A stretch of DNA of 64,000 nucleotides. It comes from Cephalotus follicularis (lineage: Eukaryota > Streptophyta > Magnoliopsida > Oxalidales > Cephalotaceae). The position numbers and the translations under genes are program-made. Positions 431 through 60,877 of the stretch are shown here, piece after piece. Each line of letters begins with the position of its first letter. The stretch's first letter is position 1. The DNA lies in the NCBI GenBank assembly GCA_001972305.1, contig BDDD01001387.1, positions 124,001-188,000 of the forward strand. The letters are read 5' to 3'. Below the pieces are notes generated by a model that was not told the DNA's origin, did not search any database, and was given only the letters and a program-made list of their open reading frames with translations.

Positions 431-864
431 TTATACAATCACCAAAATTATCCTCAAGAGAAAATCAAGCAACCCTACGCAGCACTTTCGTTGGTACAGT
501 TATCTAAAAGATATAAAAACAACAATTCAAAATAAGAAATTAAAAAAAAAAAACCTTACAAAAGTGTCAGCGCTTTATCTAGAACAAAGCCGAAAGCGTC
601 GACTCTTTCTAGCATAAGTGTCAACGTTTATCAGGACACAGGCGACGTTTAAATATTTTAAAATTTCAAACTTTGAGGACAGAGCGTCGATGCTTTACAG
701 AAACAAAGCAAGATGGCGTCGACGCTTTACAGAACAGCGGGATTATGCACATTTGAGGAAAGGCGTCGACTCTTTGACGTAAGTTTAAGTGTGCTTACAG
801 TGCTACACGTAAACTGAAGAAAGTGAGGATTAAAACAAGACCACTCTTAACACAGCACCCATTA

Positions 865-1350
865 ACATGGCATGCACAACACACACAGCACACCTACACA
901 TACTACATGCAAAACACACACACTGCACGCACCGCACACACATACATACTCTGCCTACACAACACACATACACTGTCTACACTTAACTCACACACACAGC
1001 ACCCTTGCTTACTTCCTTCACAACACACACGGCTCATTCACTGTACACACACCACATGCAAACTCTCACACAAAGGTTGCACACAACCACACTGCACACA
1101 CAAAAATAACATTTACTCTGCCTTCACCACATACACGCACACGTACGCAACACACAACATGCAAAACACACCCAACACGCACACAACACATGCATATCAT
1201 ATACTCTGTTTTCACAGCACATACACACAACCAACACACACGCACATGCACACTGCCTCCCTTACACAACACATACACTCTCACGCTAAACACACTTACA
1301 CAGCCTTCCCACATCCAACACACACACATGCGCATGAGGGACAACGCACA
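865..1350. repeat. CA-rich low-complexity tract
   Basis: Irregular runs of CACA interspersed with CATGCAAAACACAC and ACTCTGCCTACAC phrases. A shorter version occurs at 19960-20275 in the homologous copy. The open frames here translate to Thr/His-rich low-complexity sequence, so no gene is called. Confidence 0.75.
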
Positions 1351-1819
1351 ACCATGAGGATTCAATCATTGAGCATGAACCAAAGTGACATTTTAAGGGT
1401 AACAGTGGCGTTTACAAAGCCAGTAAAACCGACCCGATGAAACTATTTCATAGAGAGAGCCCGAATGCTGTAAGGAATACAGACAAACAAATACAAAAAC
1501 AAAGAAAGACATGAAGGCTTTGCTTATGGAGGGTGACGGGGTCAAATTCTTGCTTATTTGGTGTTCCATAATGAAACAAAGAAAGAAAACAAACCTGAAG
1601 GAAGCCAAACCGTGGGAGAAACGCAAGGAAAATTCCGAGGCTTGCAGTGGTTGGTTGGCTCCAGAGAGAGAGACAGAGAAGGAATGACAAGCTGGGTAAT
1701 ATGCATATGAGGTTTAGTTGATATTACTACCAAACGATTTCTTAAACCAAAACATGAAGAATCAAACCTGAAACAATGAGGAAGCTGTGGGAACAAACGC
1801 CAGGAATTTCTGAGCTCAG

Positions 1820-1854
1820 CAACAATGGCGTCCAGGAGCGAGAGAGAGAGTCCA

Positions 1855-1898
<44 letters not shown>

Positions 1899-2417: not shown

Positions 2418-2569
2418 ACTGTAAATTAATAGTATAGTATATGTATAAAGGATATTTGCAATAGTATTCTTAATCTTTTAATTTTGCATGACATTATAAT
2501 TTGATAATATATAGTAGAACAACTGTATAGAATTTGTATTGATTTTAAATACGGTGAGTTCTTGCAGAG

Positions 2570-4839: not shown

Positions 4840-5527
4840 TACCTCATAAATAGATTAGATGCACAATCCTAAACTACAGTGTAATAAAAAGAATTTGCCC
4901 TATACTATACTTCTTGTTTGAAACCAAGAGAATGTACCGAATAAAACTTGTTTAAAACCAAGAGAATCTACCGAATAAATAGAAAAAAAGATACACAAGC
5001 CTAAATTACAGTGTAATCAAATCCAAAACAATAATTCTATGAATCATAATTGACTTGACATCACAAAAGATCACAGATGAGTTGTTAAAGAATAATACTA
5101 TGGGCAACAAGTAAAAAAAAGAACTGACAGCAACTGCTGAGTTTATGGCACATCACACATTTTAATCTATCTCAATGATGGTCTCCATTTCTTTTTTTTA
5201 ATCAAACTTAATGATATTATGACACATAATTACCGTGGTTTTTTGTTGCTGTCCATAGCTTTACCCGTTGTCAAAATATTATTGCTGATATTTTTATTAA
5301 AAGTTAAAATATCATTAATAATGTTTAAAAAAATACCAATTATATTTTGACACATATCACTTATGATGCCCTTATAATATCAACATTATAGTGTAAACTT
5401 GACTCTCCCATAAAAAAAAATTTCTCAAAATTTCGTGTGTGCAATTGAACAGCCACTGCGGGAATGTATAAGAGTAACTGCACCAGCACCAAGAGAAACT
5501 AAAGTATCCTCCCTCAAAAGAGGAAAA

Positions 5528-5570
<43 letters not shown>

Positions 5571-5621
5571 GGCACAAATAACTTTTGCACACCACAGTAA
5601 CAAACCAGCAGTTAAAGAACC
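4840..5621 (+). promoter_or_regulatory. Promoter and 5' UTR of the first QRT3-like gene
   Basis: A candidate TATA box (TATAAG, 5467-5472) lies 155 bp before the start codon. A (CT)n run at 5533-5560 followed by (CA)n at 5561-5570 lies in the presumed 5' UTR. From 5111 on, the sequence aligns with the promoter of the second gene, including TATA box and CT run. The part 4840-5110 is unique to this copy because the other copy is cut by a CACTA end. The TATA and CT assignments are positional inference. Confidence 0.55.
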
Positions 5622-8600
5622 ATGAAACCGATTTTAGCATTGTTGCTCCTTATAATAGTCCTAGTACAAGAAACAACTTTTACTCTCAAGGTAAGACAGT
5701 ATCAAGCAACACTTGAACAGATTGCAGCTACTTCAGCTTTGACTTCTACACCAGCTTCAAACCCCCAAAAGGTTAGATACATGTAATCACATATAAACAT
5801 ATGTATTAAAAATCATAGGGCTTATAAAATATTCGTTTATTGGTGTTAATTAATTACGTTTGTATGCTTTATATGTGGGTGCTCTTTGAATGCTTATTAG
5901 GTTATTGGAAGAGTGTACTATCCAATTGGGTATGGAGCGGACCCAACAGGGGCACAGGAGAGCAGTGATGCCATATTGAATGCATTGAATGATGCTTTCC
6001 AAGTGCAAAGTGGACTTGAATTGGTTGCTGGTGTCAATGACTTAGGTGGTGTTATCATTGATCTGCAAGGTGGCAACTACAAGATTAGCAAACCCATTAC
6101 GTTTCCAGCTTCTGGTGGAGGCAATGTTGTGGTGAGTTGGCCCTTAATTAATTTGTTGCTTACACACGTTTTTCAACAACTATTCATTACTTTCTCTGCA
6201 CATCTCTGTTTGCTTTCTCTCCAATATACAGTTGCGGTTACTGTCTTATGACTACCAATAAGATCTATCATCTGTTCAATTATCTCAAGTTTTTGCAACT
6301 TTTCATGTGTAAATGTGGACACATGTTACCATTTTACAGAGTCTTCTCTGGTTTTAATGCATGAGAATGCATGCTTTATGTAAGTTGAAGCTTCAAAAAC
6401 AAATTTAATTGCCAACTACTATATTATTTAAACCTGTCTGTCTTATTATGGTCTCCCTCCAACAGATGTACGCAAAGTCAAAAACTAGTGCTAAAGGACA
6501 CGTATGTCACTCTTTAAGAGTTCTTTTATCTATCTGTATAATACCTTCTTTTACTATATGCAAATATAAATTACGATAGTAATATTATTCCCACTAGTTT
6601 TTTCTTTCTTTTTGATAATATATGAATAACAGTCTAATTATGAATACATTATTGATGGTTGTTTACTAAAAAATAAAAATATTATTGATAATATTTTAAA
6701 ATTATGAATAAAGTATTGATATTTAAGACTGTTGTTGTGCTGTTAATATCTTTATTCACAATATAACGACAATGATTGTTGTGTTAACTTTATAATCAAA
6801 TACAAGCAAATTTTATTAGAGGGAAACAATTAGGTTAGATAAAAAAATTCTTCTGGTTATTCAAACACATTTATAGTTTTTAATCAAATAATAATCAACC
6901 ACTCATCTCACAAAAACTATCTAAATAAGTCTTTTGTCAAAAATAACTTCTCAAAAGACTCACTATGATTTGAAATACGTGTATATACATACAACCTTTG
7001 AGTAATATCTGATTTGCGTTATATTATATATGCTTTGAATGCATTCAAAGATGTTTTAAATATGGATTGGTTGTTTTCATATTAGAGCATCAAGTAAGTT
7101 GTAGTTGACAATATTCAGTGTAATCCCTTTAATATAGGATAGTTTTAATGTAGCAAACCTAAGCCTAAAATCACTCATGTAACATCTACTTACTCCTGTA
7201 ATCATACACGTAATCAGCAAAATATATATGTGTGTGTGTGTTCATTACCCTTCAATCCATAACATCTATTATATTCATTTTCCGTGAAATTTTTTAAAAA
7301 ACGCTATCGTTATGCTTTTATGGCGCCAATTAACTCCTCGGGTCCTTCCTAAAAGTAACACCCTTTGTCATTGCTGCCCCTAGATAGACACTTAATACCA
7401 GTAGTATATATGACCACCGCTTAGTGAAAGGACCATTCTTGGTTGACGTTTCAAAAAGCCTACCAATAGTACATAACCACCAATTAAGTTCCAAAATATG
7501 TAAGAACAGATAAAAATAACGAAACTTTTATTGATTGACTTGATAAACCATATCATTAATTTATGAAAGTTCATTGTATTATTATCTTATGTGAACTTTT
7601 ATAGGTTAATAGGTAATTTTTGTCTCAAACTTGTAGCTGAAAGTTGCATCTTGAACTCTTTTTTGGTGTAATTAAGGGATTCAATTTTCAAAATCAGAGT
7701 AATTAAAAGATAGTATAACACTAACGGTGAATAAGTTCATGCTGCAACTTGCACTTTTACTACAAGTTCATGTTCAAATTACGTATTAACCCATTATTTA
7801 ATTTACAGATGTGTCCGTCATATCATCACTTAACAGTCACGTCATCCACAGTAAGTGATAAATTAACGACAGTCTTTTAATTACTCTTATTTTGAAAGTT
7901 GAATCCCTTAATTATACCTAAAATAAGTTTATGGTGTAACTTACACTTTTGCTAGAATTTTTCATTATCAATATTACCCCTTGTGTTTTATGTGTGAAGC
8001 ATGTGTTAATAGGTACATTTTCAAATGTCTTTGTAGTTTGGATTTGGATCGTTTGACTCATTATGAGTATACTACGACGTGAATTGATTCATGAGAACTC
8101 TTGGGCATACTTCAAAATTCTATAATAAATTCCTAAAGTGTTTATCCATGTATTAGTTTCTTGGCATCTAAATAAAGAAGAACTAAAGAGAAAAAAAGGT
8201 CATGAGAGTGAGTCTTATTGATTTGGATCCCCCATTTAAACGAAAGCTGATGTTAATGATTCCCAAACTCACATTTAATGCCTAAATTATGTTGGCATGA
8301 TTAATAACTTAGGTACAAGGAGGGACTTTGCGAGCATCAGACACATTTCCTAATAATAGGCATCTTATTGAACTATCGTCACCAAATTCTCAAGCACTTG
8401 TTACAAACAATGACATTAAAGCTCAAAAAGAAGCTATCTACTATGAAGACATCACCTTCCGGGACATTCTCTTCGATTCAAGCTATCGCGGAGGAGGAAT
8501 TTTCATTATTGATTCAGCTAGAACTCGGATAGATAATTGTTTCTTTCTCCACTTCCAAACAGAAGGAATTCTGGTAAAAAAAGGACATGAAACCTTCATA

Positions 8601-9371
8601 TCTAGTTGCTTCCTGGGACAACATTCAACAGTTGGTGCTGATCCAAGTGAGAGGGATTTCACTGGCACTGCCATTGATCTAGGCAGTAACGATAATGCAA
8701 TCACTGATGTTGCAATCTTCTCAGCAGCCATTGGAGTTTTACTTAGGAGTCATGCTAACATTGTCACTGGGGTACATTGTTACAACAAGGCAACATATTG
8801 GGGTGGTATAGGAATTTTGGTTAAACAAGGTGCAGCTCTAACTAGAATAGATAATTGTTACTTAGATTTCAATTCTATAGTTATGGAAGATCCGGTTCAG
8901 GTTCATGTCACTAATGGACTATTCTTCGGAGATGGTAATGCAGTGTTGAAGTCAATCCATGGCCAAATGTCGGGGTTAAATATTGTAGGAAATATGTTCA
9001 GTGGGGACCCAAAAAACATGAAACCAATAGTAACATTGGATGGGAATTTCGGTAGCATTGATCAAGTGGTGATTGACAGGAACAATGTGAGGGGCATGAG
9101 CTTGAAATCAACAGTGGGGAGATTAACGGTCACCGGACATGGAACGAAATGGGTGGCCGATTTTTCGTCGGTGCTGGTATTTCCTAATAGGATTAATCAT
9201 TTCCACTATTCATTTTATGCTCAAGGGGAACCTGCAGGGTTACCAGTACATGCAGTGACCAATGTGTCAAATAATGTGGTGGTTGTGGAGAGTGACGAAG
9301 TGGTTAATGGGGTTGTTTCTGTGGTTGTTGATCAGTATGGTATGGTTGGACAGACTACTTACGTAATCTAG
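5622..9371 (+). CDS. QRT3: QUARTET3-like polygalacturonase, copy 1 (three exons)
   Basis: Exons are 5622-5771, 5901-6131 and 8313-9371; all borders are GT-AG and phase is kept, giving about 479 codons, close to the length known for Arabidopsis QRT3. The N-terminus is a signal peptide (MKPILALLLLIIVLVQ). Exon 2 begins the pectin-lyase-fold region (GRVYYPIGYGADPTGAQESS), as in Pectate_lyase_3 domains. Exon 3 has parallel beta-helix-like repeats (ITFRDILFDS, RIDNCFFLHF, RIDNCYLDF). I do not see the four canonical GH28 motifs, which fits the divergent QRT3 class. In Arabidopsis, QRT3 is a tapetum-secreted enzyme that degrades pollen mother cell wall pectin so that microspores separate. Compared with copy 2 it has about 20 substitutions in exon 3 and lacks four residues near the start of that exon. 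The frame is intact. Family confidence is high; the exact role is inferred. Confidence 0.88.
7605..7960. repeat. Fold-back (MITE-like) repeat in intron 2 of copy 1
   Basis: The left arm (TAGGTAATTT, CTTGTAGCTGAAAGTTGCA, AATCAGAGTAATTAAAAGA) is mirrored by a right arm (TTTTAATTACTCTTATTTTG, CTTACACTTTTGCTA). The homologous copy at 35307-35680 retains the full right arm; here it is cut short at about 7957. No coding potential. Confidence 0.65.
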
Positions 9372-10680
9372 ATAGTAAATGTTGCTACAACTATTCAAAA
9401 AGTTTTGTTTTTATATGTATAACAAACAATCACTTAGTAATCGTTCAATACAGTAATGCTCGACTTAATATGTTTCAGGTAACACAGTAGTTTCATTCCC
9501 AATCTGTGCACTGAGAAGTCATTTTTTCAAATTTTATATTAGTTTTTTAATACAGATTTTTCATTATATGGTTTCTTCCACACGAATCACACAGTAATTT
9601 AACGCATTTCTCTCTTTTTTATTAACTACTAATTATTAATTTCTAATCAAATAGACCTTCATATTAGCCTTATACAAAAATATTATTCATTAATAATGCC
9701 GGTTATATTCTTTTTTTATTATTCGAACATTGTTAGGCTTGCAAACCCTATAAAGTATTTGTGACACGAATTCAGATGCAGCCGTTAAAAAAGAACTGAA
9801 GCCTGGTGTCTATGCTTTTCTCCTCGGTAAAGGGGCTCTTAATGTTCAAAGCTTCACATAGATATTAATTAATATAAATACTAATGTGATCCGTACGTTG
9901 TTGTTACGGATTGATATAATTTTTTTTTATTATAGGTGTTATTTATTTATATTTTTTAATGTATAATAGAAAATTTCAAATTTCAAATAATAAAATAGTA
10001 ATAAATTGAAGAAGATTTGAGCAAGAAAAATACTTTTTATTTTCAAATTTCAGAATATATTATCTTAATTTATCAATTCTCATTTGAATGGTAAATTAAA
10101 AAAAGTATGAGATAATATTAAAAAAAAGCAAATGATAAAATTTTGAATCACTTCCACGAAGAATAGATGGTTGTGTTTATTTTTATATTTATGGAGTTTT
10201 ATGTGATTTTTGTGTAAAAATTATTTTATGTGATTTTTAGGAATGTAGTTGAAGCGAATAAATCTATCACTCATGCATGTGTTGATGTTGTGTCAATAAA
10301 GCTAGTGAATACATATATATAATCGGAATACCACATGTTCAACTCTTGCAACTTATAGTAGGTAGTAAGTAAAAAAAAAAAATCATGTTAATATAGACAA
10401 TGTACATGACTTGGATGACATATTTGAGAATAATTGAGGTTATGAATCTTGACTGACATGTTTGAGAATTATCAAAAAAGAAATGACATGTTTGAGAATA
10501 TTTCAAAATATAATAAGATATTTGATAGTAGTTAAAAAAACAATGTTATATTTGAGAATAATTTGAAAAAATAATATTAAAATAGGCATGACAATTCAAT
10601 ATAATGGCATGTATGAGAATAGTTGAATAAATAAAGGTAAACTGACAAATAAAAAAAACTTTAGGGGTAAAGAAATACAG
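9372..10680 (+). other. 3' flank of copy 1, duplicated segment
   Basis: This aligns with 39309-40905 apart from a 316-bp insertion in the other copy. It contains no ORF with recognisable similarity. The segment 10364-10650 is a degenerate repeat of about 45 bp built around TGACATGTTTGAGAATAATTGA, present also at 40610-40860. Confidence 0.7.
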
Positions 10681-10763: not shown

Positions 10764-12067
10764 TGTAGGAAGTCTGGGGGGTTGAATAGACTTATAAAAA
10801 TTATACTAGCAAATAATCTAAAAACAATTAAAAAAATCACACAATTATGGAATTTAAATAGTGTAAGGTTGAGAAAATTGCAAACAAATATATAGTAGTT
10901 CGGCAAACCGCCTACGTCCACTCCCCAAGGCCTCCCCTTGAGTATTTCACTAGTATGCCCCAACCGGGCTTGAAACTCCAACTTTCACTTCAACAACTTT
11001 CGCTTCAACCAAGCGATTACAAGTTTGCTCCATCTGAGCTTGAAACTCCAACCGAGCTTCAATAGTTTTGCTCCAACCGAGCGATTACAATCTTTGCTCC
11101 AACCGAGCTATACAAGAGACAACCTCTCTTGTTTACAAGTAATTGAAAGTGTTTAGAGTTTACAAATTCACAGAGAATTTGTTTACAATTTGTCTCAATA
11201 CACACAAAGCTATAATAATATGAGTTACAAGAATAAGTGCTTTGTAATGTGTAGAATTGCTTGATTTTGATCTCTTTTGGTTTTGACAATGTTATGTATG
11301 TAGCCTGAGTTGCTGTGAAAGAATTGAGTGTTGTCTTGCTTGATCACTTGAGTAAGATACCTCACTTTTGCTTATAAAGACATGCTCCAACGGATATATT
11401 TTTGAAAGTCAGACTCATTTCAGTTGGTTGGATTTCCTTGGCAGTCAGTTGGAGCTCATAGCGCGTATTTTTTATTATAGTCGTTGGTGAGGCAGTCAGC
11501 TGGTCGATCTTAACAGTTGGCTGTTTTTCCTAAACAATCAGCTGGTGCTCTGTTCCAGTCGCCTGGTAGAATGAGACATGATCTCCAAAAAGCTACTGGT
11601 CTAATTTGAGAATTGCTGACAGTCGGCTGGTGACTATGGACAGTCGGTTGTTTTGCCTAAACAGTCGGTTGGTGCTCTGTTACAGTCAGTTGGTGGAGGT
11701 ATAGAGGATTTCCAAAAAAGCTACTGGAATAAATGGACAGTCGGTTGTTTTACCTAGACAGTCGGCTGGATCCCTGTTCCAGTCGGCTGGATGGAGTGCA
11801 ATTCCAGTTCCTGGATTTCTTGTATTTCCAGTCGGCTACTCATCCTCTGACATTCGGCTACTCAACTCAAACAGTCGGCTGTTCATCTTGGGCAGTCGGT
11901 TGTTTTTGGCCTGTACTTGTATTTTTGAGCTTTGCAACACTTTGGACATTAATTCAAGTATGTATATGAGTTTGTAAGTTAGAAAAATATGCATACATGT
12001 ATTCTATGTTTGTTAATCATCTAAATATCAATCTTTAAAACATTTAAAGGAGTGGCAAATGCCAACA
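10764..12067 (-). repeat. LTR of SIRE-like Copia element
   Basis: On the minus strand it starts TGTTGGCATTTGCCACTCC at 12067 and ends CTTCCTACA at 10764 (TG...CA, 1304 bp). It is preceded by a degenerate polypurine tract (12068-12082, AAAAATGGAAAGAT). The interior at 11430-11910 contains about ten copies of CAGTCGGCTGG-like words. It serves as the 3' LTR of the coding element at higher coordinates. No 5' LTR is recognisable past 27285. Confidence 0.8.
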
Positions 12068-12646: not shown

Positions 12647-13788
12647 TCAAGAGGATCTGGGAGGAGGTTGTTGTGGATAGGTGTTTTGAAGCATTTGGAT
12701 TACTGGGGCCATTTGAGCATCTTGTGAATCAAGGCGAGTCATGAGAGTGGCTTGATTATCGTAGATTTGATCCACTCTTCCTCGAATATAGTCAATATTT
12801 GCTTGCGCCACGTCCATCCTTGCTTGGAGTGAGTCCAAGGTAGGTATGCTACCTCTACTACTACTTCCTCCAGCAACATTTGGCCTCACTTCAAACTGAA
12901 GTTCCTCATCTTCTTCTTCTGCGTCATCTCCACAAATTCCAACAGACTGTTCCCTCACGGGGCTCTACCTGCTACTTGTTGCTTCACCCATAATCCGTCC
13001 TCAAATTTGATATTGCAACTTTTAAGTCCGGATTTATTTATGAGTTGCTTGGTTTTAGGTTTAACATTGTGCTCATCCGATATATCAAGATTTAAAGAGG
13101 CTAGAATCCTACTAATGAGCATAGGATATGGAATGTGGTTTGGTCTAGATAGAATGTGATTAATGATAAGATAAGGGAGGTTAACTAGAGTGCCATTTTT
13201 GATACATGCCAATAATTTGAGGTCTCGCTCGGATGGTAAAGTGTGCGAGCCTTCCCTAGGTAACAAGATGTTTGTAATAATCAGCAAGAGAATGCGAGTG
13301 GCAATAGGTAAGTGATGGTCATAAAAGGATTGAAATTGGATCGTTCTAGACAAATTTGTAAAGCATCCAATTTTTCTATTTCATTAAAATTAGTGATTCC
13401 GGAACAAGGAATTCCTAATAATTTGGCAATTGTTTCAGAAGAAATTTCAATACGGTTGCCAAGAATGAATGATTTAGCAACATAGCTACTGGTTTTCTCT
13501 AGATTGGCATAGAAAAAATTTGACTAACCTAGGGTAAATAATGTGGGATGAGCACAAGTAATCAAACCAACCCATATTTTCTAGCCAAAACTTAATAGAT
13601 GCAATATTGTTAACCAAAATGTCTCTATCTAACCACTTTTCATGTTGAAGCTTGACAGAATTTAGCACGAAGTTATACCTTTGTTCATTCTCTTTGGAGA
13701 GAAAGAGATCGTCGTCAAAATCGTTGATAGGGTTTGAGTTTCTCGCAGGCCTGGAAGTGCCAACGCTCTTACTCTTCTTGGAAGCCAT
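12647..13788 (-). pseudogene. Extra ORF downstream of Copia pol
   Basis: Three minus-strand fragments (13788-13486, 13353-12955, 12958-12647) read as one broken protein of about 380 residues. It starts MASKKSKSVGTSR at 13788 and carries FVLNSVKLQHEKWLDRD and a WFDYLCSSHIIYPRLVK segment, then LIITNILLPREGSHTLPSER, and ends in an acidic and coiled-coil tail (DSLQARMDVAQANIDYIRG). It resembles the plant proteins annotated as putative plant transposon protein (PF20167-like) and occupies the place of the env-like ORF of SIRE1. I see no signal peptide or membrane segment, so an envelope function is not supported. A stop and frameshift between the fragments make it inactive here. Confidence 0.55.
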
Positions 13789-14195
13789 AAATATCAGTAG
13801 AAATGGTTTGGGAGAGGTGTGAATCGAGTTTTGACAGTGTTTAGAGGAGTGTGTTTGAGAGAAAGAGGGAAAAATCGAGTTTTAAAAATTGATTCCCGCA
13901 TCAACGGTCTACTGGGCGTTTTGAGCCAGTCGGCTGGATATTGAGACAGTCGACTGGATAAGGACACCAGTCGGCTGGATTCTGCGGAAATTGAATATGC
14001 AGATTTTGAGCTTCCCTTTGTTCCGAAAATCCATAATCAGCTATTATTAACTAATTGTGACTTAAATACTTGAGCATTTTGATGTATTTGAGTTAAAACT
14101 CAATGTTGGATGCATGACATTAGTTTGAAAATCATTTCATACACATCAAAACACATAATTGACATTCAAAGTTCGCAAAAGCACACATAAAAGGA

Positions 14196-33048: not shown

Positions 33049-33087
<39 letters not shown>

Positions 33088-33144
33088 CACACAGGCAAAA
33101 TTAACTGTTGCACACCACAGTAACAAACCAGCAGTTAAAGAACC
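32646..33144 (+). promoter_or_regulatory. Promoter and 5' UTR of the second QRT3-like gene
   Basis: This aligns with 5111-5621. The TATAAG candidate (32988-32993) and a (CT)n run (33054-33084) are conserved. Only about 500 bp of the ancestral promoter remains because a CACTA terminus adjoins at 32645. Confidence 0.55.
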
Positions 33145-34829: not shown

Positions 34830-34887
<58 letters not shown>

Positions 34888-45059: not shown

Positions 45060-45062
45060 AAA

Positions 45063-45073
45063 TGGTATCAGAG
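45063..45073 (+). promoter_or_regulatory. tRNA-Met primer binding site
   Basis: TGGTATCAGAG, the standard plant Copia primer site, three bases after the LTR end. Confidence 0.9.
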
Positions 45074-47710: not shown

Positions 47711-50700
47711 GTGAATATGTATATTCCTGATTCATCTTTCTGGATTTTAGACAGTGGATGTGGTGCTCACATATGTTCTAATTTATAGGCCCTCACAGAC
47801 AGAAGAAACCTTGAGAAGGGTGAGGGAGATCTTCGGCTTGCGGATGGCTCGGTTGTTGAAGCCATGGCTGTAGGATTAGTTAGTATTTTGTTGCCTTCGG
47901 GCCAGAGCTTTGTACTCAAACAATGCATTTATTCACCTCACATTTTGCATAATATCATTTCTATTCTGGCACTAGATGCCGAAGGTTTTCATATTATTTT
48001 TAAGGACAAGTGTTGTACCGTTTTAATGAATAATGTGATATATGCAAAATGTTTCATTCATGATGGATTATATGTATTGAATAAACATGAGATTGTTTCT
48101 AATATGCAAAAAGACAATAAAAGAAAGAGAGATGAAAGTAATCAATCTTACCTATGGCACTGTAGACTTGGTCATATTAGTGAGAAAAGAGTTTGCTGGT
48201 TGATCTCGGATGGATATTTTGATTTTTCAAAATATCAACTGTTTCCAACTAGTGAGCCATGTATTAAAGGAAAAATGACAAAATCTCCCTTCACATGGAA
48301 AGGGGAAAGGTCCCCAGAACTGTTCGGTCTAGTGCACACTGATGTGTGTGGATCGATAACAGTGGATGCTAGAGGTGGATATTCATACTTCATAACCTTT
48401 ACCGATAATCATTCACGGTTTGGTTATTTATACCTAATGTAGTACAAATCTCAAGCCTTTAATAAATTTAAAGAATTTAGACAAGAAGTAGAAAAACAGA
48501 CTGGAAAAAGTCTGAAAACTCTTTGATCAGATCGAGGTAGTGAGTATAGCTCCACTGAGTTTTTAACTTATCTCAGAGATAATGGGATTATCTCTTAGTG
48601 GACGCCTCCTGGAACATCACAGCATAATGTTGTGTCTGAAGGGAGGAATCGCACATTGTTTGACATTGTGCGGAGCATGATGAGTGATGCTCAACTTCAA
48701 CTGTCTTTCTGGGGTTATGCCTTGGAGACTGCTGTTCTCATATTAAACAGGACTCCAACAAAATCTGCTCCCAAGACTCCATATGAGATATGGAATGGGA
48801 AGAAACCCAATCTTAGTTATCTAAGAATATAGGGCTGCCTTGTATATGTCAAGCAGGCAGCAGCAGATAAATTGGACTATAGGTCCATAAAATGTAAACT
48901 TGTGGGATATCCTAAAGAAACAAGATGATATTATTTCTATTACCTACCTGACAACAAAGTGTTTGTGGCCAGGCAAGGTACTTTTCTTGAGAAGGATTTC
49001 CTGTTGGAAGACAGTAGTGGGAGTATGATAGAGTTGGATGAGCAATCCACAGCATCACGAGTTGAGGACCTATTTGCTCCTTTTCAAATTAATGAGCCTG
49101 GAAAATCAACAACTACAGACACACAACCTCTGCGTAGAACTACCCGATTACCTAGGGAACCCGAGAGATACTATGATAGGTTTCTCATTGAAATAACCCA
49201 AGAGACAAACCTCATGAATGATGATCCGATTAGTTACAAAGAGGCCATATCAGATATGGACTCGGAGAAGTGGCTTAAAGCCATGAATTCTAAAATGGAA
49301 TTCATGTACTCCAATCAAGTTTGGAATCTAGTGGATGCACCTGAAGGAGTTAAACCCATAGGTTGCAAATGGATTTTCAAAAGAAAGTTTGGAGACGATG
49401 GGAAGGTGAAGACCTTCAAAGTTAGGCTCGTAGACAAAGACTATAATCAACGGGAATGGATTGATTATGAGGAAACTTTATCCCCCGTAGCCATGCTTAA
49501 ATCCATTCGGATTTTACTTTCTATAGCTGCATATCTTGACTATGAGATATGACAAATAGATGTGAAAACTGCCTTCTTTAATGGAAACATTGATGAAGAC
49601 ATATATATATGACCCAACCTGAGGGTTTCATATCCACTGGTGAGGACCAGAAAGTGTGCAAACTAAGAAAGTCCATTTATGGACTAAAGCAAGTTTCGAG
49701 AAGCTGAAACATCCGATTCGATGAAACAATCAAAGAGTTTGGTTTCATAAAGAATCAAGATGAACCATGTGTGTACAAAAAGCTTAGTGGGAGCTCAGTG
49801 ACTTTTGTTGTTATGTACGTTGACGACATACTCCTTATCATAAATGATGTGATCATGTTGTCCAACGTAAAGGCCTGGTTATCCATAGTTTTCTCCATTA
49901 AAGAATTGGGAGAAGCTATCCTAGGTATAAAGGTCTATCGGGATAGATCAAAAAGGATGATAGAGTTATCCCAGTCTTTGTATATTGATAGAGTGCTTAA
50001 GCGTTATAGCATGGAAAATTCCAAGACAGGTTACCTGCCTCTCTGTTATGGGATTTCACTTTGTAAACAAATGTCTCTTATGACACCTGAAGAAAGACAA
50101 ATGATGATGCATATTCCTTATGCTTCGGCAATTGGAAGTATCATGTATGCTATGCTTTGCACTAGACCAGATATCGCCTACGTTGTACGTGTTACGAGCA
50201 GATATCAGTCAGATCCAGGTGAGTAACACTGGAAAGCTATCAAGGATATTCTCAAGTACCTTAACAGGACTAAAGATTTATTCCTAATATATGGAGGAAA
50301 AGGTTTGAAAATTGAGGGTTATACTAACTCTAATTTTCAAACAGACGTGGATGATTCAAAATCAACATCGGGGTTTGTATTCACCTTGAATGGAAAAGTA
50401 GTGACCTGGAAGAGTTCCAAACAACCTACCACTGCGGATTCAGTCACAGAAGCTGAATACATTGAGACATCATAAGCTTCCAAGGAATGTGTATGGATGA
50501 AGAAGTTCATCAATGATTTGGGTGTAGTTCCTGGCATTGATGATCTGGTATCTTTATACTATGACAACAATGGAGCGATAGCGCAGGCCAAGGAACCAAG
50601 ACCACACTCAAAATCTAAACACATTCTCAGGCGTTTTTCACCTTATACGTGATATCGTTGATCGTGGAGATATAAAAGTGGAGAGTGTACCAGGGGAAGA

Positions 50701-50800
50701 CAACACTTCAAACCCGCTTACTAAAGCATTACCAAAGGCGGTCTTTGACCGACACCTAGATGCTATGGGTATGAGACACTACGACAATTGGCTTTAGTCC
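47711..50800 (+). pseudogene. Copia pol (protease, integrase, RT, RNase H)
   Basis: Protease FWILDSGCGAHICSN (47735-47785), then GAG-pre-integrase (YLWHCRLGHISEKRV, 48150), integrase (LVHTDVCGSITVDARGGYSY; SQHNVVSEGRNRTL, with Val-Ser at the position of the usual Ala-Glu pair), RT (WLKAMNSKMEFMYSNQVWNL, VMYVDDILLI at 49810-49840) and RNase H (SDSVTEAEYIE-like, LYYDNNGAIAQAKEP, 50400-50600). At least ten in-frame stops (for example 48440, 48525, 48830, 49550, 50224) show decay. Confidence 0.9.
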
Positions 50801-51489
50801 TTAGTTAGAGATTGTTAGAGATAAAGTCCTGCAAGCCAGTGTCGAGCTTGCATTTACTCTATCTTGTATATAACGATTTATATTCAATAGAGATGTTTAT
50901 ATTTTATCATTTGCTATGAGTTCATTATATTAATACATGCTTAATTAATAATAAATGAATGTCCTAGAATAAAGTTAGATAACCAATTTATGATGGGATC
51001 ATGATGTGAGAGTTGGAATCTCGACATACTTTATTTCAAATCTTCCTGGTTATAGGATTGACACTCAGGGCATGATCAATCCAGATAAACCAATACGTAC
51101 TATCAGATCGTTAAGCAAAGGGTGACTGATCTCACACTCGCTCGCATGGTTGATGTTATGATAACTACGTGGGTGCTCATTAATTAATTAATGAGTTCAC
51201 TGAATGTGACTGGAAAATAGAATATCTGTATGGAGTTTTACTTACATGTCAGACAAAATTCTAGTTTTACAACAGTGCAAGTGGTCCTTGGACATGAGCC
51301 GTTACTGAATGTCTTGTGCATAGGGTGTTATGGTTTGATGGTGCTTAAATACATATTCAATGAAATGTATATAGGCATTAGTTGGACATAGTGCGCTTAT
51401 GTATGGAGACATGTGAACGTGCAATAATGAATCCATTGCTTCTAGTAAAAGAAGATTATACTTAGGATCACTACAAAAAAACAGGGCTT

Positions 51490-51700
51490 TTGAAACGCCC
51501 CCTTTTGAAACGGAACATGCGGCCGTTTCAAAAGGATATGCTTTTGAAACGGCCGCTTGTTCCGTTTCAAAAAGCCAGCCTTTTGAAACGGATTTACTTA
51601 ACCGTTTCAAAAGGTCATGCCTTTTGAAACGGTTATGCTGTGTCCGTTTCAAAAGGCCCAATCCTTTTGAAACGGTGTAGATTCACCGTTTCAAAAGGAC
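51490..51700. repeat. Left subterminal hairpin array
   Basis: About five consecutive inverted repeats with stem CCTTTTGAAACGG and variable loops. The first two also pair with each other through CGGAACATGCGGCCG and its near complement. Confidence 0.88.
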
Positions 51701-52810
51701 AACATCTCTTTTTCTTCATTTTACTTACACAACCACTCACATCTTCTCTCTTTCTCTAACACACAGTCGCTCTCATATTTTCTCTTTCTCTAACACACAG
51801 CCCCTCACCCAGACCACCGACGGTTTTGCCTGCAAAATAGGCCGGTGAAACCGCCGGATACCCCTCTTCTCTCCCTCTCCTTCTTCTTATACGTATTTTC
51901 CTTTTCAAAGATCTAAAACAAAAAAACCTAACAGTCAAAATCAGAACAAAAACTCAAGAGGTAGCTTAGAGATTTGTGAATCCAGGCCTTGGGAAGGTAG
52001 ATCTGCATTTTAATGATATTTTGGAGGTTTTTGGAGCTCGGTATGGTGCTGGTTGTGTCACCATTTTGGGGTTTTGAAATATGGCCAGTTTGGGTGGTTT
52101 GGGTGTTTGAAGGTTATGGGGAGGCTTCGGCTTCGGTTTAGGTTTTGTGGTTTTTGGAGGCTTGACAGTTGTGGGTTTTTTACAATGGCTCGATGACGTG
52201 ATTTTTTCGTGTCCGATATGAGGCATGAAGGTGGCTGTTTTATTTTTTTGGGTGTGGAGGTTGAGGTCGTCGTGGAGATGGAGTTGTGAATCAGTTGTTG
52301 GTTATGGTGTTGAGGTGGAGGTGGTTGCTTCAGGTTGGATTGGGGCTGCTTGATATGGTGGTGACGACAGTTTTGAATGGGATCAATGGATGATGGAGGC
52401 AGCGGATTGAAGGGTGGTTTGGTCGTGGGTATTGTAATGGTGGTGGATGGTGAAGTTGAATGGTGGTGTTTCGGTGGCTTTGGTGTGTTGAAGGTAAGGG
52501 CAGTGGCTGTGGTTGGTGATCATGGGATGCGCACTGTAACCGACGACCGACGACAAGCAATGGTGATTTTTTTTGCTTACTGTTTCAATCCATTTCCCTA
52601 TATTTTCTTTTGTTTTCGGTTTGGTATGTATATATATATATTGTGAAATGTGGTGAATGTGTTTCCCTATATTCTTAAGCATTTATGATGATCTGCTCCT
52701 GGTTTGCTGATATGTGGGTTGCTGGTTTGGAGTGGAGCTCATTTGCCAAGTGGAGATGGCCCTGATATGATTTTTTGTGATGCTATGACTGTGGTGCTGG
52801 TTGTTTGCAG

Positions 52811-53842
52811 CTGCTGGCTGGTAGACTGCGTCATGTTCTGCCTGCTGTCCATGGCCAGGTATTTGTAGTGACAAACAAGATTGCTTGCGAAGCTTAATAT
52901 TCTATTTGAATGACTGCACTTTAAGGTTTTAATTATTGAATTTTCATCCTGAGGCTGTGGGTTAATATATCTGCTTGGGATTCTGTCATGCACACACACG
53001 CATTTAGATCTCGCTCTTTTGTGTGTTTGATTTTTTCCTGTTACATGTTGGGATGGTTGTTACCGGTACATACAGCAGTGTGAATTTGTCAGATACATTA
53101 GTCTGCCAAATTTTGTTCTCACTCTGATCCGGTTGAAATGCTTTTTTAGGCAATTGAGAGAATTGGCAGATCTGCTTTGAAGGATGAGAACATCCTGAAT
53201 GATTTGTTGATTCTATCATGTGAAGAAGATTATGCAATCTGTATACCTTTGCTTGAAAAAGGTATTAAATGGTCAAAAATTGATTATTAGTGTTAGCAAT
53301 AGGCAATTTACAGACTTCCATAAGAATTTTCTCAATGACTGTATGCTTGCAGGTGAAGCAGTTTACAGTTCAGAGCTGCTATTGAATGGGATAGTTACTC
53401 AGAAGTTGGAGTATGAAAGGTTGGTTTTATCAGTATAAAAAATGTTATAGCTTTCTCGACAAGATATGGAATCATCTCTGCAGAAATGAATGTGCTTTTA
53501 TAAGTTGGGGTTACTGTTTCCTCATTAGTCTAATAAATCGGTACGACTTCTGTAAATAGTAACCTGCATTCCATGAGGAATTCTTTTCTAGATTGTTAAG
53601 TGTTGCAAGAAGGCAATGCACTAAATTAAATAGATGGTCTTTCATTATTATATAATATGGTTATACATGCCTGGCCAATATCGAGTTTGTTTGGTACATG
53701 GTCTACAGCTTGTGTGTATTAAATCATCTGAGTTTCTGGTGACAGGCACCGTCTATTCCCGGATCACGTCAAGAGAACCCGTTCTACAATCTGGCTAAGA
53801 AAAAAAGGCAATGAGTTCTGTCCAGTCTCAAAGCAGAAATAA
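52811..53842 (+). pseudogene. Captured host gene fragment, four spliceable exons, unidentified
   Basis: Exons 52811-52858, 53150-53261, 53353-53419 and 53746-53842 are bounded by AG and GT and keep a single open frame across every junction, ending in TAA at 53840-53842. Together they encode about 107 residues, with segments LLAGRLRHVLPAVHGQ, AIERIGRSALKDENILNDLL, EAVYSSELLLNGIVTQKLEY and RHRLFPDHVKRTRSTIWL. I do not recognise the family. The sequence upstream (51720-52800) looks like UTR or intron: pyrimidine-rich, then G/T-rich with no convincing exon. Phase conservation over three introns argues for a real gene 3' end carried by the transposon. It could be expressed from within the element or be inert. 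Confidence 0.6.
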
Positions 53843-54109
53843 GTTTATTCTCTTTTTTATTGTTCATTTTCCTTTTTGTTTTTTGCCATCTGGTAAATAT
53901 TTTGCTCTTTTTTATTTTCTTCATGCAATTTTTTGTTAGGCACACAGCCTTATGTACATAGAAGTTTTTATGTTTTTCTTGTATGAGCAGATAAAGCCTT
54001 CAAAAATTATTTGGTATAGTTTTTTCCTCTTTTGCGCGCATAAATATATGACAAATTCATTTATAATACAATAATATATATATATATATTTATTATATTT
54101 TTTTTGAAA

Positions 54110-54540
54110 AAAAGACCCCTTTTGAAACGGATTTTCCGTTTCAAAAGGGGTATTTATTTATTTTTTTTTGAAAAAGCACCCTTTTGAAACGGAATATCCG
54201 TTTCAAAAGGTATATTTTTTTTTAAAAAAACACCCTTTTGAAACGGATAGTCCGTTTCAAAAGGTGGGCCTTTTGAAACGGAAAATGTATCCGTTTCAAA
54301 AAGGTCACCTTTTGAAACGGAAAACCCCATCCGTTTCAAAAGGCCACCTTTTGAAACGGATGAATTCTTCCGTTTCAAAAGGTCACCTTTTGAAACGGAT
54401 ATTCCGTTTCAAAAGGCTATTGATACGCCACTTTTTTGAAATTCCATTTTCCCGTTTCAAAACCGTTTCAATTGACCTTTTGAAACGGAAAATTTGACCT
54501 TTTGAAACGGAATCCATCCGTTTCAAAAGGCCTGTTTTTT
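54110..54540. repeat. Right subterminal hairpin array
   Basis: About eight near-perfect palindromes with stem CCTTTTGAAACGG and loops of 4-14 bases (near 54116, 54179, 54233, 54267, 54308, 54346, 54386 and 54475). ORFs on both strands here are products of the repeat. Confidence 0.92.
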
Positions 54541-55852
54541 TGTAGTGGATGATTTTCGTTAGCTATTTAGTGCATAGTCAGGCTAGCCACGATATCAAGT
54601 ATTTGATATCATTGGTAAAATATTAGAGGGGCACCTTTAATATTAATTAAGGCTGACGAAAGATAATTACGTAGCTAAAGATTAAGTTATCGGGGTCTGA
54701 CATAATCTGTACCATATATTTAATCAGAGCATTGTCAGTGGAGGGACTATACGTGCATGTACCTGTAAATCGTGGTTCGCAGATAATTCATATTACATGG
54801 GGGTCGTTATGCATTGCTAGATGTCGATGTCGACCTATAGGATGCCTGAGATTAAATTGATAATTAATCTTGGAAGAAAATAATTAAAATAGTTTAATTC
54901 AAAAAATCCGAGAGGGTGTTTTCTTTTTATATGATAATAAATACCTAATCAGATAATTGTGAGTGTCACGATTTAATCATACAGTCAGCGTAATAGTGAA
55001 CTCATAGGGTCACACATAATATAGGCTGATATTTCTGACACCGTATGAGAGAAAAATACTTAAGATAATTATTTCCTAATTACATTTAATGGGATTAAAT
55101 GTCCTTAATATGATTAAGGAAAATGAGACATATGTGGAAAGAATGACTATTTATGTTAAGTAGGATACTTGACTAAAATAGGAGATTGAGACTTAAGTTT
55201 TACACGTTTTTGCTAGCACAAAAACAACATAACACATCTCTCCCTCAATTCAACCGTTTCTCCTCACTCTCAATAGAAAACACGTTTTCTTCTAGTTCTC
55301 TCAAGAACAAGAAAAACAAAAAGCATGCAATCAAGAGTTGAAGGCTTGAGAAGTCTAGTGTTGGAGATTGAAGCTTGGTGTGGATACCTTGGAGGCCTGC
55401 TATTCTTGGAGGCTGGAACTCGTGCCGATTACACAAGGAGATCATCCCACCTTGGAAGCCATAACCCACACAAACAAGGAAGGAGCCGCTCCGTATTGTG
55501 AGTTATTTCCGCCTTCTCCTTCTTGTTTATTATCTATATTTCTGATTGTTTATATATGCTCAATAGATCCTGGATTGAATCTTGTGGCTTGTTGATCATG
55601 AGATGACAATGGATTATATTAGGGTTACATGCATCTAGATTTTAATTGCTTGCTTAATAGCCATAAGGTTCAACGGATGATCCTCTAGTCGTTACTCTTT
55701 GTATCACCACTTTTAGGAGACACATAATTTTGGTTGATAATGGTAGTTCCACAGCCATTCTCTTTGGTGACACTTTTCAAAGGACGAAGACATCTAGGGA
55801 ACAAATCAAACCAGTGAAATGTCCCTTGGTGGGATTCACGGGGAATTGGTAC

Positions 55853-58388
55853 TGTAATAACCGTAATTTCAATTCATGTATTTTGTAACCATCGATGAAT
55901 AAAATATACTTTTGAGATGTTGTGTTGTTGCCTTTTTAATCGAATGAAGTTGGAATAAAATTCTGAAATGGAAAAAAACTAAAGAAATAATTTCTGGTGC
56001 CAAACCGCCGACGCCGAGATTCATACCGTCGACGCTTTAAGCCCTGACACGTACACAGAACGCGCAGCTGAAGGCTAAGATAAGGCGCCAACCGTCGACC
56101 TTTAAACGCCCAGCATCGACTCTTAAAGGCGCATAAGCGTCGACGCCCACGAAGTAACCGGCGATGCTTTAGACGTGTTCTGGCGAAAAATATGTGTCAG
56201 TTGGAATGAAATGGCAGAGTTGGAATGATGAGAACATGGGCATGTGTCCATAGACGTGTTGGCCATGCAAGAGAGGCCTTGCCAGCTGTTGTTAGTGCCA
56301 GACCAAGGAGTCTTGCATGTCCCTCTTCACCTGCAACCTGCCAGAAAACATGAAAGAAACAAAAGGAAGAGTGCATGCATGAGGGAGAGAGATATGTGCA
56401 TTGAAGGATGGAGAATCTGGCGAAATGAAGGACACACTGATGACCTTTTATACCAGTTGTGAGAGGTTGGATGAGAGGGTTAGAAAACACTGAGAGATTG
56501 AGAGACAACCTGGATAATTGTTGGGAGATTGCTAGAGGTTGAAGGAGCTTGAAGTTCAAAGGGGGGAAAACTTGGAGCACCACCTGGAATTGGTAAGTAA
56601 TCCAAAATTTCTTGATGTTGTTAAGGTCGTTAGTGATATAATACCCTGATGTTAGCATCACACTGCCACTGTTAACATGATTATGAAGGATAAAGCATGG
56701 AAGAGAAGATTGAATGTTGTATTAGCTAAGAATTAGAAAGTTGAACTTAGGAATTAATTATTAAACTTCTGATTCAATTCTTGGATGTTGTCATGGTTAT
56801 ATAACTAGCTTAATGTACTGGATTCGTATCTAAGACCTATTAACATGAAATTATGTAGATTAATTCTGCAATTTTGGAAGATTGAAGGAAAGTGAAGAAC
56901 TTTGGACTTAAAGAGAGAAATCAATTCCAAATTGATTTTTGGATAGCAATTGAGGCAGGGGATTTTGACATGTTTTTGAACATATAACATGTATAATATG
57001 TTGTGATGGTTCGTACTTGATTGCATGTAGAATTGAACTGAATTTGTGTTGATTGTATGTATCCCCTGTTTTGAAACTGCTCCTGGAATTCGTATGAACG
57101 CCAGAAGCGTCGACGCTTACACAAAAACTGTCGACGCTTTGGTACGAAAATGGCATATTAAGGCTTAGAATGTCGACGCTTAAGTTGTGTAGTGTCGACG
57201 CCTAGTCATTAACCGTCGACACTTACATAGTAACTATCGACGCTTTAGAATAGTAGGTGTAGAAATGTGTAAACTGATCGATTGATTTAATTGTGGTTGT
57301 AATGACCCTTGATTTGCTATATTGTAACTATTATTACTGTTATTCAATGAATTTATACTGTTATGGATACATATCCAAGGATTTTACCAACCAAATGCTT
57401 TAAGCATAAGTAATGATTTTCACGGTTTTCTATGTAAAATCTTAATGACATACAAACTGCTATTTTCCCTCATTAGAGGCACTGCTACTGTTTAGTTCTC
57501 ACAAGAGAACCAATGACTGAACTGTTATGTTTTCTACAAACGAAAACTACTATAGTATTGCATATTGTAGATATGTGTAATATTGTTACTGAATTGAATG
57601 AATTGATTGTCTATGTTATTGCCGATTAGTCGAGTGATGGCAGATGTCACTGGCTAACGGAGGTGGTCCTATGTGCCAGGAGTTGGCTAGAGTACACACC
57701 AAAACTGCCTGCAATGCAGAGCTTGATTGTAAATTGCCCGCTAATGCCGGTAGTAAATGTTACCTTATCTATCATCTTCGGAGTGTAGGGTGATAGATAG
57801 GTGGTGCACAGTTGGTGCTAGGAGTTAGCGACATGTGACACCCAAACCACTGTACTGATTGATTGTACCCTTGTGCGGTATTCTTGCATTGTACTGTCTA
57901 TGGCCACTTGGCATGATTGTGTATATATTGGAATACTATATATATATGTCATTCATTTAAACTGTCATGCATATTTACATTTATAGATTCAATTACATGC
58001 ATTATCTTCCTACTTAGCCAAGTGAGGACAACGGCTAACCCCTACAATTTCAGATTAAGCGAACACATTGGAGGGTACTGCTGAAGCTTTTGGAGAATTG
58101 TTGTTTCTATCTTAAGGTTGTTATTTTATGATGATGTACTGCAATTGAAATGAACGGTTCATACCCCGTACTTGTTGTACTTTCCTTATGTATAAGGATA
58201 TTGTTGGATTGTACCTGCACGTAGTATGGGCTGCGTGCGGATGACTTGTATTTTATATTCCGGCTTATCGAATGCTTCCGCTTATATATGAATTGTTGAC
58301 TGGAATGCTGGAATATTATGTTTTATTTAATTCTGATATCACCATATATGCTTGTCTTTATATGGAAATGGTAAGGCGGGGTATGACA
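55853..58388 (+). mobile_element. Solo LTR, 2.54 kb, target duplication GGTAC
   Basis: Starts TGTAATAACCGTAATTTC and ends GGGGTATGACA, with GGTAC at 55848-55852 and 58389-58393. The Gypsy protease frame resumes exactly after it. The interior has GCGTCGACGC words (55995-56175, 57105-57250). The 57600-58020 part has phrases such as GCCAGGAGTTGGC and GTGCTAGGAGTTAGC, and CTAACCCCTAC near 58035, like other TGTAA-type Gypsy LTRs. No coding sequence. Confidence 0.88.
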
Positions 58389-59083
58389 GGTACAACCCAA
58401 AGGAATGATCTCCTTACCATTAACGGTAGGAGAAGAGCCATATCTGAGGAATGTTATGATAAGCCCTTACAACAGTATCATCGGTCGTCCCAGACAGAAG
58501 GCTATTATAGCAATCACATCCATTCCTCTACTCTTCCTACATTTCCCAACAGCTATTGGGGTATAAATACTAAAGGGTGACCAAAGTCAAGCATGTCAAT
58601 GTTATTTTACTTCTGTGAGACTAATGAAAACAGTAATGCCGATTATAAACTCGTTGAAGGCAAAAACTGACCTATGGAAGAGTTGGATGAAATCAAGTTG
58701 TTCAAAGAATATCCGGAGAGGTCAGATCGGATTGGATCCTTGATAAAAGGAAACGTGAGGTCAAAGCCCGTTAAATTTCTCATAAAGAACAGATGAACTT
58801 TCGCGTGGGCAATGGAGGATATAGAAGTTGTCAATCCAAATTTCATTGAACATAAACTCATCGTGGAACCTAACCACAATCCAGTGAAACAAAAGAAGCA
58901 AGTTTTTTTTTCTCTAGAATGTCAGAATGCCATATCGGAGGAGATCACAAAATTCCTAAAGGCTTCATTAAGAAATTTGACTATCTATTATGGATTGCCA
59001 GCCCTGTGCTGGTTAAAAAAACTAATGAAAGTTGGAGAATATGTATCGACTTTACCGACCTCGATAATGCCTATGCCCCTTAG

Positions 59084-60233
59084 CTCGATTTGACCGAGGT
59101 GAGAGCCTACTCTCTTCACCTCGGTTCGATCAAGGTGATGGCCTGCGCCCCTCACCTCAGTTGAACCAAGGTAAGGGCCACCTCCCCTCACCTTAGAAGA
59201 CCCAAATTAAGAGTCCTCTATCTAAATATCTTGGTTAATCCGAGGTACAACAGGCCTTGGGTACCTTAGAAATTCTAAGATAACTCATAACTCTAAATAC
59301 CTTGGTGAATCTGAGGTAAAAACGGGCCTTAGGTACCTCAAAAATTTTGAGATAACTCATAGTTCTAAATACCTTGGTTAATCCAAGGTACAAACAAGCC
59401 TTAGGTATCTCATTAATTCCAAGATAATTCATAGCTCCAAATACCTCAGTTAATCTGAGGTAAAAACGAGCCTTAGGTACCTCTGTAATTTCAAGATAAC
59501 TCATAACTCTAAATACCTCAAAAACTTTTCGAAATAACTCATAGCTCTAGATACCTCGATTAATCCGAGGTACAAACAGGTCTTGGGTACCTTGAAAATT
59601 TCAAGATAACTCATAGTTCGGCCAATCCAAGGAAAAAATGGGCCTACCTCGAAAATTTTGAGATAACTCATAAGCTATGATTACTTTGGTTGGTCATGAT
59701 TGCTAACGACTTTTGTCACCTTGTTAAAAATCAAGGCACATACAAAAGAAAGTTAAGCAAAACCGGGGGAGCACTGAAACTTTATTTCACGCTTTCTACA
59801 ATGGAACATCGTTTTGACAAAAGAAATATTCTTAGCCTAACCATGTGAACAAAACAAAATGGCCAACGATGGAACGTCAACCCCGAGAAATCCCAGGAGC
59901 TGTAGGGATGATGAGAATTTGAGCCACTGGTCTTTGCTTCGTTAGGCAAGAATTCAGCATAGAAATTCTCAGGGTCAAGATTGTTGCTGATCTTTCCAAG
60001 CTTCTTCTTCATCTTGGTATTGTGACTCCAAGAGCCCACCCATGGGTGGAGACACTTAAGGGGTTGGAACCTTTGGTCATTGTTTGAGTTTTGATCTTTT
60101 CCAGTTCTTACTCCCGATGCTCATTAAGAGCATTCACGACCCTCTAGAAGTGAGCATCTCCAATTCAAGCTGATCTTTTGCAACCTTTTGATCAAATTCA
60201 CGCACCTATTCGACAGTAGTAAATCAAGATCGC
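59084..60233. other. Repeat-rich stretch after the Gypsy RT fragment
   Basis: 59084-59210 has GACCGAGGTGAGAGCC-type phrases; 59215-59690 is a tandem array (listed separately); 59700-60233 has no recognised feature. A minus-strand ORF at 60039-59782 has no identifiable domain and is not called. Confidence 0.5.
59215..59690. repeat. Tandem repeat, about 70-bp unit with internal hairpin
   Basis: Roughly seven units, each with GATAACTCATAACTCTAAAT, ACCTTGGTTAATCCGAGGTA (an inverted repeat), a CGGGCCTTAGGTACCT segment and AAAATTTTGA. One unit near 59500 is shortened. Confidence 0.88.
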
Positions 60234-60241
60234 AACAACAC

Positions 60242-60877
60242 TAGAGTTGCAAGTGGGCTGGTTCAAACCGTGAAACCGGCCCCAACCGACCCTTGTGGTC
60301 CTTGAACCGGCCCGGACCTTGCGCCACGTGGCAGAACCATGGTTAAACCGGCCTTTAAGAGTGGTCCGGGCCGGTTCAGGGTGTTAGGAACAGTTGAACC
60401 GGACCGGACCGGCCCGTACCTAGACGTCAACATCATATTTAGACGTCAACGTAAAAGGATACTCAAATCTCAAATTGAAATGGACGTTAACGCACAAAGA
60501 AAATGAAGTCAACTCAAATGACATTAGCGTCAACGTCATACATACGCGTCAACGTGAATAAAGCAAAAATCGAACAGAAGCTTATGATGTCAACGCAAAG
60601 AACCAAACGTGTCAACGCATAAAGAGATAGACGTCAACGCCAAAGACAACCAGACACAAAATCTACAATAACTAAAGGTGCTGACGGTTAGCAATATGAA
60701 CCAAACCGGCCCGGACCGGCCCGTCTTGCTTACGATTAAGGTTTAAAGGCCAGTTCGGTTATCACTCTTTAGCTCCATGAATCGGACCGGTCCGAACCGT
60801 GAGAATCGGCCCGCCTTTTGACGGTCTCGAACTGTCCAGGCCACGGTTCGGACCGGCCCGGTCCGCTTGCAACTCTA
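60242..60877. mobile_element. hAT-type MITE, 636 bp, target duplication AACAACAC
   Basis: Termini TAGAGTTGCAAGTGGGC and, inverted, GCTTGCAACTCTA. The perfect 8-bp duplication AACAACAC lies at 60234-60241 and 60878-60885, the hAT signature. The interior is rich in AACCGGCCCGGACC words and contains an ACGTCAACG cluster (60420-60680). No transposase. Confidence 0.92.

Follow-up and report, generated by a model that had tools for sequence, protein, structure and literature searches.

A ten-base palindromic word, GCGTCGACGC, and its variants (GCG-type words) are clustered in several unrelated kinds of transposable element (TE) within a 64,000-nucleotide stretch of Cephalotus follicularis DNA (contig BDDD01001387.1, positions 124,001 to 188,000; the window). 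Words of this kind also stand directly upstream of a transposon gene, T32, whose type of word follows its clade and whose predicted protein model finds its best structural match in VANC21, the DNA-bound anti-silencing protein of Arabidopsis VANDAL elements. We judge the chance to be about even that the word is recognised by an anti-silencing protein which is VANC-like, encoded by the elements and common to unrelated families. Because the same word also precedes T32, which is VANC-like in predicted shape, different transposons may share one escape signal.

Enrichment and spacing of the words

In the window GCGTCGACGC is found 5 times exactly, 20 times at ≤1 mismatch and 47 times at ≤2 mismatches, as against means of 0.01, 0.15 and 3.57 (maxima 1, 3 and 10) in 200 dinucleotide-preserving shuffles made in 1-kb blocks. 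Of the 160 palindromes of ten bases that have eight G/C it is the most frequent at ≤1 mismatch (20 sites; runner-up 8; mean 0.6), and certain A/T-only palindromes are more frequent in the window. An initial annotation, made from the sequence alone, had claimed clusters of the word and its near variants and proposed a check against shuffled controls; the clusters are borne out by the 20 sites against 0.15 expected, all 9 of the CGTCGACG 8-mers of the window lie inside those it listed, and the strong excess over shuffles in the window is matched in the genome (1.577 Gb) by 73,186 exact copies of GCGTCGACGC against 121 of the reversed word. GCGTCGACGC is also the most over-represented 10-mer in the window together with 20 ten-kb stretches of contig C1, in a ranking of 10-mers with at least 8 copies in 6 chunks for which 15 of the 20 C1 stretches were picked for holding GCGTCGACGC; the next non-overlapping 10-mer is a sister word of identical core, CAGTCGACTG, with CAGTCGGCTG closely behind. 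Among the listed literature matches that print GCGTCGACGC there is no transposon title. A second word, CAGTCGRCTG (the CAG word), was missing from the initial list and forms arrays at 11493-11902 (12 words at ≤1 mismatch, of which many are spaced by 21 bp, downstream of the T32 gene of the window), at 13927-13977 (three words spaced by 20 and 21 bp, immediately upstream of that gene) and at 18081-18265 (8 words).

The most frequent distance between successive words (at ≤3 mismatches) is 21 bp in every carrier group; i.e. there are 14 such pairs in Sirevirus, 24 in Athila-type and 16 in Tekay-type arrays, 3 in a Copia leader, 10 in the other window arrays and 37 for the CAG word. The lineage names are presumptive, from features typical of each lineage, with Pfam backing at the superfamily level. 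Pair distances of CAG words have a period of ~10.25 bp; for GCG-type words at two mismatches a ~10.25 bp period is nearly tied with 24 bp, and at one mismatch no such period is seen. The common core is approximately A(A)GCGTCGACGC(T)T, and outside the 14-bp core the bases vary by lineage while the 21-bp spacing persists. A prefix near TTCTGCAGAAAACAG (~15 bp) is common to Athila-type arrays, 6 of 6 of which score at least 24 on the better side, and Sirevirus arrays, 5 of 6 of which score at least 20 (null: 95% at 18, 99.5% at 22, maximum 24), in a test that is partly circular because the probe was picked by eye from these same arrays. High prefix scores are also reached by one CAG array (L011, 26) and the window array at 28770 (32). 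All 11 Tekay-type arrays tested score ≤16 and the Copia leader scores 16. The initial statement that the carriers are alike in little besides the word fits the evidence.

The T32 gene and its upstream words

In the Sirevirus elements studied here the frame after pol encodes a PF20167 "putative plant transposon protein", T32; it holds this position in loci L022 and L023 and in the window. The window copy (12650-13881, minus strand; tblastn to the L005 and L011 T32 genes) belongs to the clade associated with CAG words and is broken into pieces, recognised by the family hidden Markov model (HMM) at E 1.6e-40, 8.3e-14, 1.7e-12 and 1.7e-05, downstream of Sirevirus-type pol fragments (14211-16961, minus strand; tblastn to L022 pol, 53-68%). 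T32 relatives in protein searches bear Cephalotus names, 113 of 113 in a first search and all 120 listed of 145 in a second.

An HMM scan of the window and loci L005-L024 yielded six T32 copies, and words lie directly upstream of all six: GCG words in L022 and both L023 copies, CAG words in L005, L011 and the window, and never both. From the 13,073 first-look candidates of a genome search with PF20167, 150 matches were scored, each exceeding the family cut-off, and approximately every seventh match was sampled, blind to words; the resulting 20 copies are all from one clade. Every one of these has 2 to 9 GCG-type words (≤2 mismatches) within 600 bp upstream of T32, 121 words as against 3.1 in shuffles, and CAG words occur in these 600 bp in 0 of the 20. 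Words are accordingly present upstream of T32 in 26 of the 26 copies examined (6 + 20). In a tree of ~58-residue T32 pieces the sampled copies form a third group, clade C (separating branch 0.80), and the CAG clade has a support of 0.998. The predominant core upstream of the clade-C copies is CGTCAACG/CGTTAACG, i.e. of GTYAAC form, with 105 exact 8-mers against 14 of CGTCGACG; the three clade-A copies together have 4 CGTCGACG and zero GTYAAC forms, L022 among them being without any exact 8-mer. Word type thus tracks T32 clade, CAGTCGRCTG being exclusive to one clade and GTCGAC and GTYAAC separated by predominance only. The initial annotation had read GTCAAC and GTTAAC as deamination products of a methylated GTCGAC; deamination alone explains little, because GTYAAC predominates in one T32 clade, and these forms, which also prevail in the window's hAT element described below, are not merely relics.

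Among PDB structures the T32 model is matched best by that of VANC21 with DNA (9LNJ), at a borderline score; a first AlphaFold run (38 sequences) reached a pLDDT (per-residue confidence) of 50.6 and was not used. Sequence searches for a link of T32 to solved structures gave weak matches only, to dihydroorotase (E 0.0078), 6b protein (0.25) and a UFD1-type protein (E 0.031), and one search gave none.

T32 is found in DNA transposons as well. The hAT miniature inverted-repeat transposable element (MITE) of the window (60242-60877) was correctly labelled as such in the initial annotation, with terminal inverted repeats TAGAGTTGCAAG and a perfect 8-bp target site duplication AACAACAC; it holds 5 GTYAAC-type 8-mers against 0 CGTCGACG, and it is a relative of T32-bearing hAT elements, sharing with T32 upstream stretches matching blocks of 68-100% identity, some of which extend to the MITE end. 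In 14 of the 20 clade-C copies T32 starts ~550 bp after a terminus like TAGRGTTGCAAG (≤2 mismatches), which was not found within the fetched stretch in the other 6. One element, C835, is complete at 5,866 bp, with both termini, an 8-bp duplication CTGTCAGC, T32 inside, and words upstream of T32, in a central stretch and at the opposite end. Its assignment to hAT rests on termini and duplication, because no transposase domain was recognised by Pfam among the opposite-strand open reading frames (ORFs) of that copy.

Elements that carry the words

Five kinds of element carry the words: Sirevirus, Athila-type, Tekay-type, another Copia and hAT. Sirevirus-type Copia carriers are L022 and L023, and L005 with CAG words. 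The Tekay-type Gypsy element at L016/L017 has arrays in both of its 2.4-kb long terminal repeats (LTRs), which are 87% identical, with pol between and a primer site at L017 1893; in Athila-type Gypsy elements related array-bearing sequence stands before the primer site TGGCGCCGTTGCCGGGG in L018 and after pol in L020. A Tat-type Gypsy carrier, considered for the L012, L013 and L021 arrays, was withdrawn when 9 kb more of sequence gave a Tat-type 5' LTR end and primer site and no cluster.

The non-Sirevirus Copia of the window (43280-55671) has a 5' LTR at 43280-45054 (plus strand) and a 3' LTR at 50813-51468 and 54548-55671 (91-92% LTR identity), with gag and reverse transcriptase domains and a polymerase only 30-32% identical to that of Sireviruses. 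Its GCG-word array (45180-45530; 9 words at ≤3 mismatches, most often spaced by 21 bp) follows the 1.8-kb LTR and the primer-binding site at 45063, and the initial designation of this array as a Copia leader was right. The 3' LTR is interrupted by a CACTA element (51469-54547), which has a subterminal palindrome of its own as its word, CCTTTTGAAACGG, and a duplication of 3 bp, GAT. The array at 28760-29150 (9 words), initially assigned to Gypsy, does group with the Athila-type arrays, by its prefix score of 32 (null maximum 24) and by an alignment of at least 80% identity to L024. The clusters at 560-790 and 19560-19850 are two copies of a single repeat, the GCG-word arrays proper spanning 544-790 (88% identity with 19389-19782; 4 words at ≤2 mismatches) and 19546-19850 (8 words). 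The cluster placed within a gene is confirmed at 36825-37660, where the GCG-word arrays sit, presumably in an intron, in an insertion in the second of two QRT3-like genes, one that the sister copy is without. Further GCG-word arrays are at 55995-56180 and 57100-57250.

A number of other features accompany these carriers. The QRT3-like polygalacturonase gene is tandemly duplicated (5115-10677 and 32647-40903), the second copy containing ~2.2 kb of inserted sequence bounded by 93-bp direct repeats; the QRT3-like host gene at 38238-39305 shares 93% identity with a Cephalotus follicularis protein and ≤77% with the others among the matches listed (best 120 of 865). A CACTA tnp2 transposase fragment (PF02992, E 2e-54) lies at 30230-31561, and a 72-bp tandem array at 59221-59518 has another palindromic word, like CCTTGGTTAATCCAAGG, perhaps as the subterminal repeats of another element. 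The words of Tekay-type arrays are, by eye, interspersed with a second recurrent palindrome like AAGGTTCCTACCTTAA (L011 5207-6413, L015 5405-5707, L016 5955-6228), and CAG words in or near Tekay-type LTRs (L021 5087-6124, L007 2231-2343) suggest that the second word may also cross families. Possible reduced elements are seen at L011 7624-9998, where a CAG-word LTR is followed within 900 bp by T32 with neither gag nor pol, and at L005 4376-10000, where gag and a retained T32 have no pol match between them.

Proposed mechanism and alternatives

In the proposed mechanism T32 (PF20167), which Sirevirus retrotransposons carry as their third gene and hAT DNA transposons near one of their ends, would bind its own word in 21-bp phased arrays, with an oligomer probably lining one helix face. 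Such target arrays, in LTRs, in terminal regions and before T32's own gene, would be the places where T32 strips away or blocks silencing marks; the words would have diverged among related T32 clades, and families lacking T32 (Athila-type, Tekay-type, another Copia and MITEs) would, by carrying the word, profit in trans. If true, this would explain the purpose of the Sirevirus palindromic boxes and the role of an "envelope-like" gene in plants with cell walls, sequence-specific anti-silencing would no longer be confined to Mutator-like DNA transposons but would include retrotransposons and hAT elements, and protection would be shared or stolen between unrelated families, a TE-TE ecology testable by motif counts. 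A broader proposal, an anti-silencing commons in which one DNA-binding family serves Sireviruses and hAT and unrelated families in both classes evolved its word, is offered tentatively and is somewhat doubtful. On that proposal thousands of elements in one genome would rely on protection made by others, and in this plant, perhaps more widely, the "envelope-like" gene of Sireviruses would serve epigenetic counter-defence.

Several observations weigh against an anti-silencing T32. Word type and clade afford just two contrasts, one of them soft, and 14 of 20 clade-C copies also carry one CGTCGACG; the fold score is borderline and no sequence homology accompanies it. CpG is kept at 448 of 558 sites in words against 348 of 583 outside (72 directed alignments), and in five copy pairs with strict words at 50 of 62 against 90 of 181; looser words give 62 of 93 and 71 of 111 against 68 of 130 (P 0.039 and 0.089), with other word bases less conserved than the flanks. 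Because the difference fades with looser word definitions, no firm claim on hypomethylation or selection is made from CpG retention.

The initial annotation named three possible causes of the shared word, namely a site for a host factor, a sequence favoured in template switching and a target of methylation. A binding site fits, and an element-encoded factor is favoured over a host one because words are upstream of 26 of 26 T32 copies, word type tracks clade, and the best fold match is VANC21 on DNA. That the words are instead enhancer boxes of a host transcription factor on which the families converged, the array before T32 being a plain promoter, is unlikely, if a serious contender: LTR and leader are places for promoters, and Bousios et al. 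suggested that the Sirevirus boxes are stress-factor sites or serve as an internal ENV promoter (PMC2829016), but a host factor does not predict words that follow T32 clade, the T32 fold match is to a TE-encoded anti-silencer, and a hAT element has arrays in a central stretch and at the opposite end too, though opposite-strand genes could use them. Passage of one array module among families by recombination or template switching, with later decay, is improbable. The Athila-type/Sirevirus prefix, from a partly circular probe, does point to possible exchange between those two, and the L011 CAG array and the array at 28770 also score high, but the 11 Tekay-type arrays and the Copia leader do not, the bases outside the core vary by lineage despite constant spacing, and word-clade matching is left unexplained.

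Spread of the word as a methylation or small-RNA target, or by drift of CpG-rich repeats, with no protein involved, has a very low probability: the palindromes are CpG-rich and Sirevirus boxes are described as forming CpG islands (PMC2829016), but neither the 21-bp preference nor clade-linked words would be expected, and GTYAAC predominates in one clade. The derivation of the words from CACTA subterminal repeats, inserted in or captured by other elements, is scarcely credible. Such repeats are often palindromic, a tnp2 gene is present at 30230-31561, and CACTAC (29028) and GTAGTG (57194) occur inside word clusters, but neither has a visible partner terminus or duplication, and the sole complete CACTA element found carries the different word CCTTTTGAAACGG; for the window this origin was rejected, as the clusters have no paired CACTA/TAGTG termini alongside.

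Comparison with known systems

The known Sirevirus boxes are palindromic and CpG-rich, lie in LTRs and before the ENV-like gene, and number up to 32 per element; they were found in Sireviruses and not in classic Copia, in a comparison covering Ty1/copia only, and their binder is given as unknown (PMC2829016). The words described here resemble them as high-copy palindromic boxes in the LTR and before the ENV-like gene (L005, L022, L023). They differ in core, 12 of 13 Sirevirus boxes having CGG-CCG (PMC2829016) as against GTCGAC, GTYAAC and CAGTCGRCTG here, although a Vitis box, CGGTCGACCG, contains GTCGAC (PMC2829016), and in being present also in a non-Sirevirus Copia leader and in Gypsy and hAT carriers. 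In its position after pol T32 is like the additional ORFs of plant LTR retrotransposons, for which "ENV-like function" has been called controversial (PMC7264820). An Athila ORF of sunflower has been reported to contain PF20167, a family tied there to Athila ORF1 (PMC11728184), and a 2026 sunflower paper places VANC beside additional LTR-retrotransposon ORFs and leaves a methylation role open (PMC12844716); unlike the present analysis, neither report, in its available text, ties a Sirevirus or PF20167 gene to VANC. No literature link of PF20167 or the Sirevirus gene with VANC was found in the text available, which does not prove its absence.

The closest parallel appears to be VANC and its VANDAL elements. 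Motif density and helical periodicity were reportedly stressed in a 2022 paper. Short motifs, repeated in tandem in the noncoding parts of VANDAL elements, are bound by VANC proteins, which cause methylation to be lost, and related VANCs use different motifs (PMC5735166; PMC10398659). T32 differs in being a PF20167 gene of Copia retrotransposons and hAT elements, not of Mutator-like elements, and its associated words differ from VANC motifs as GC-rich palindromes or near-palindromes common to five element kinds, T32 activity itself being putative. The likenesses are a TE-encoded protein (after Sirevirus pol, and within hAT termini at C835), short-motif arrays in noncoding regions of its own element, a motif that differs between related proteins (PMC5735166), here over 26 T32 copies in three clades, and a word present also in unrelated elements, as is the VANC6 motif in AT9TSD1 (PMC5735166; PMC10398659).
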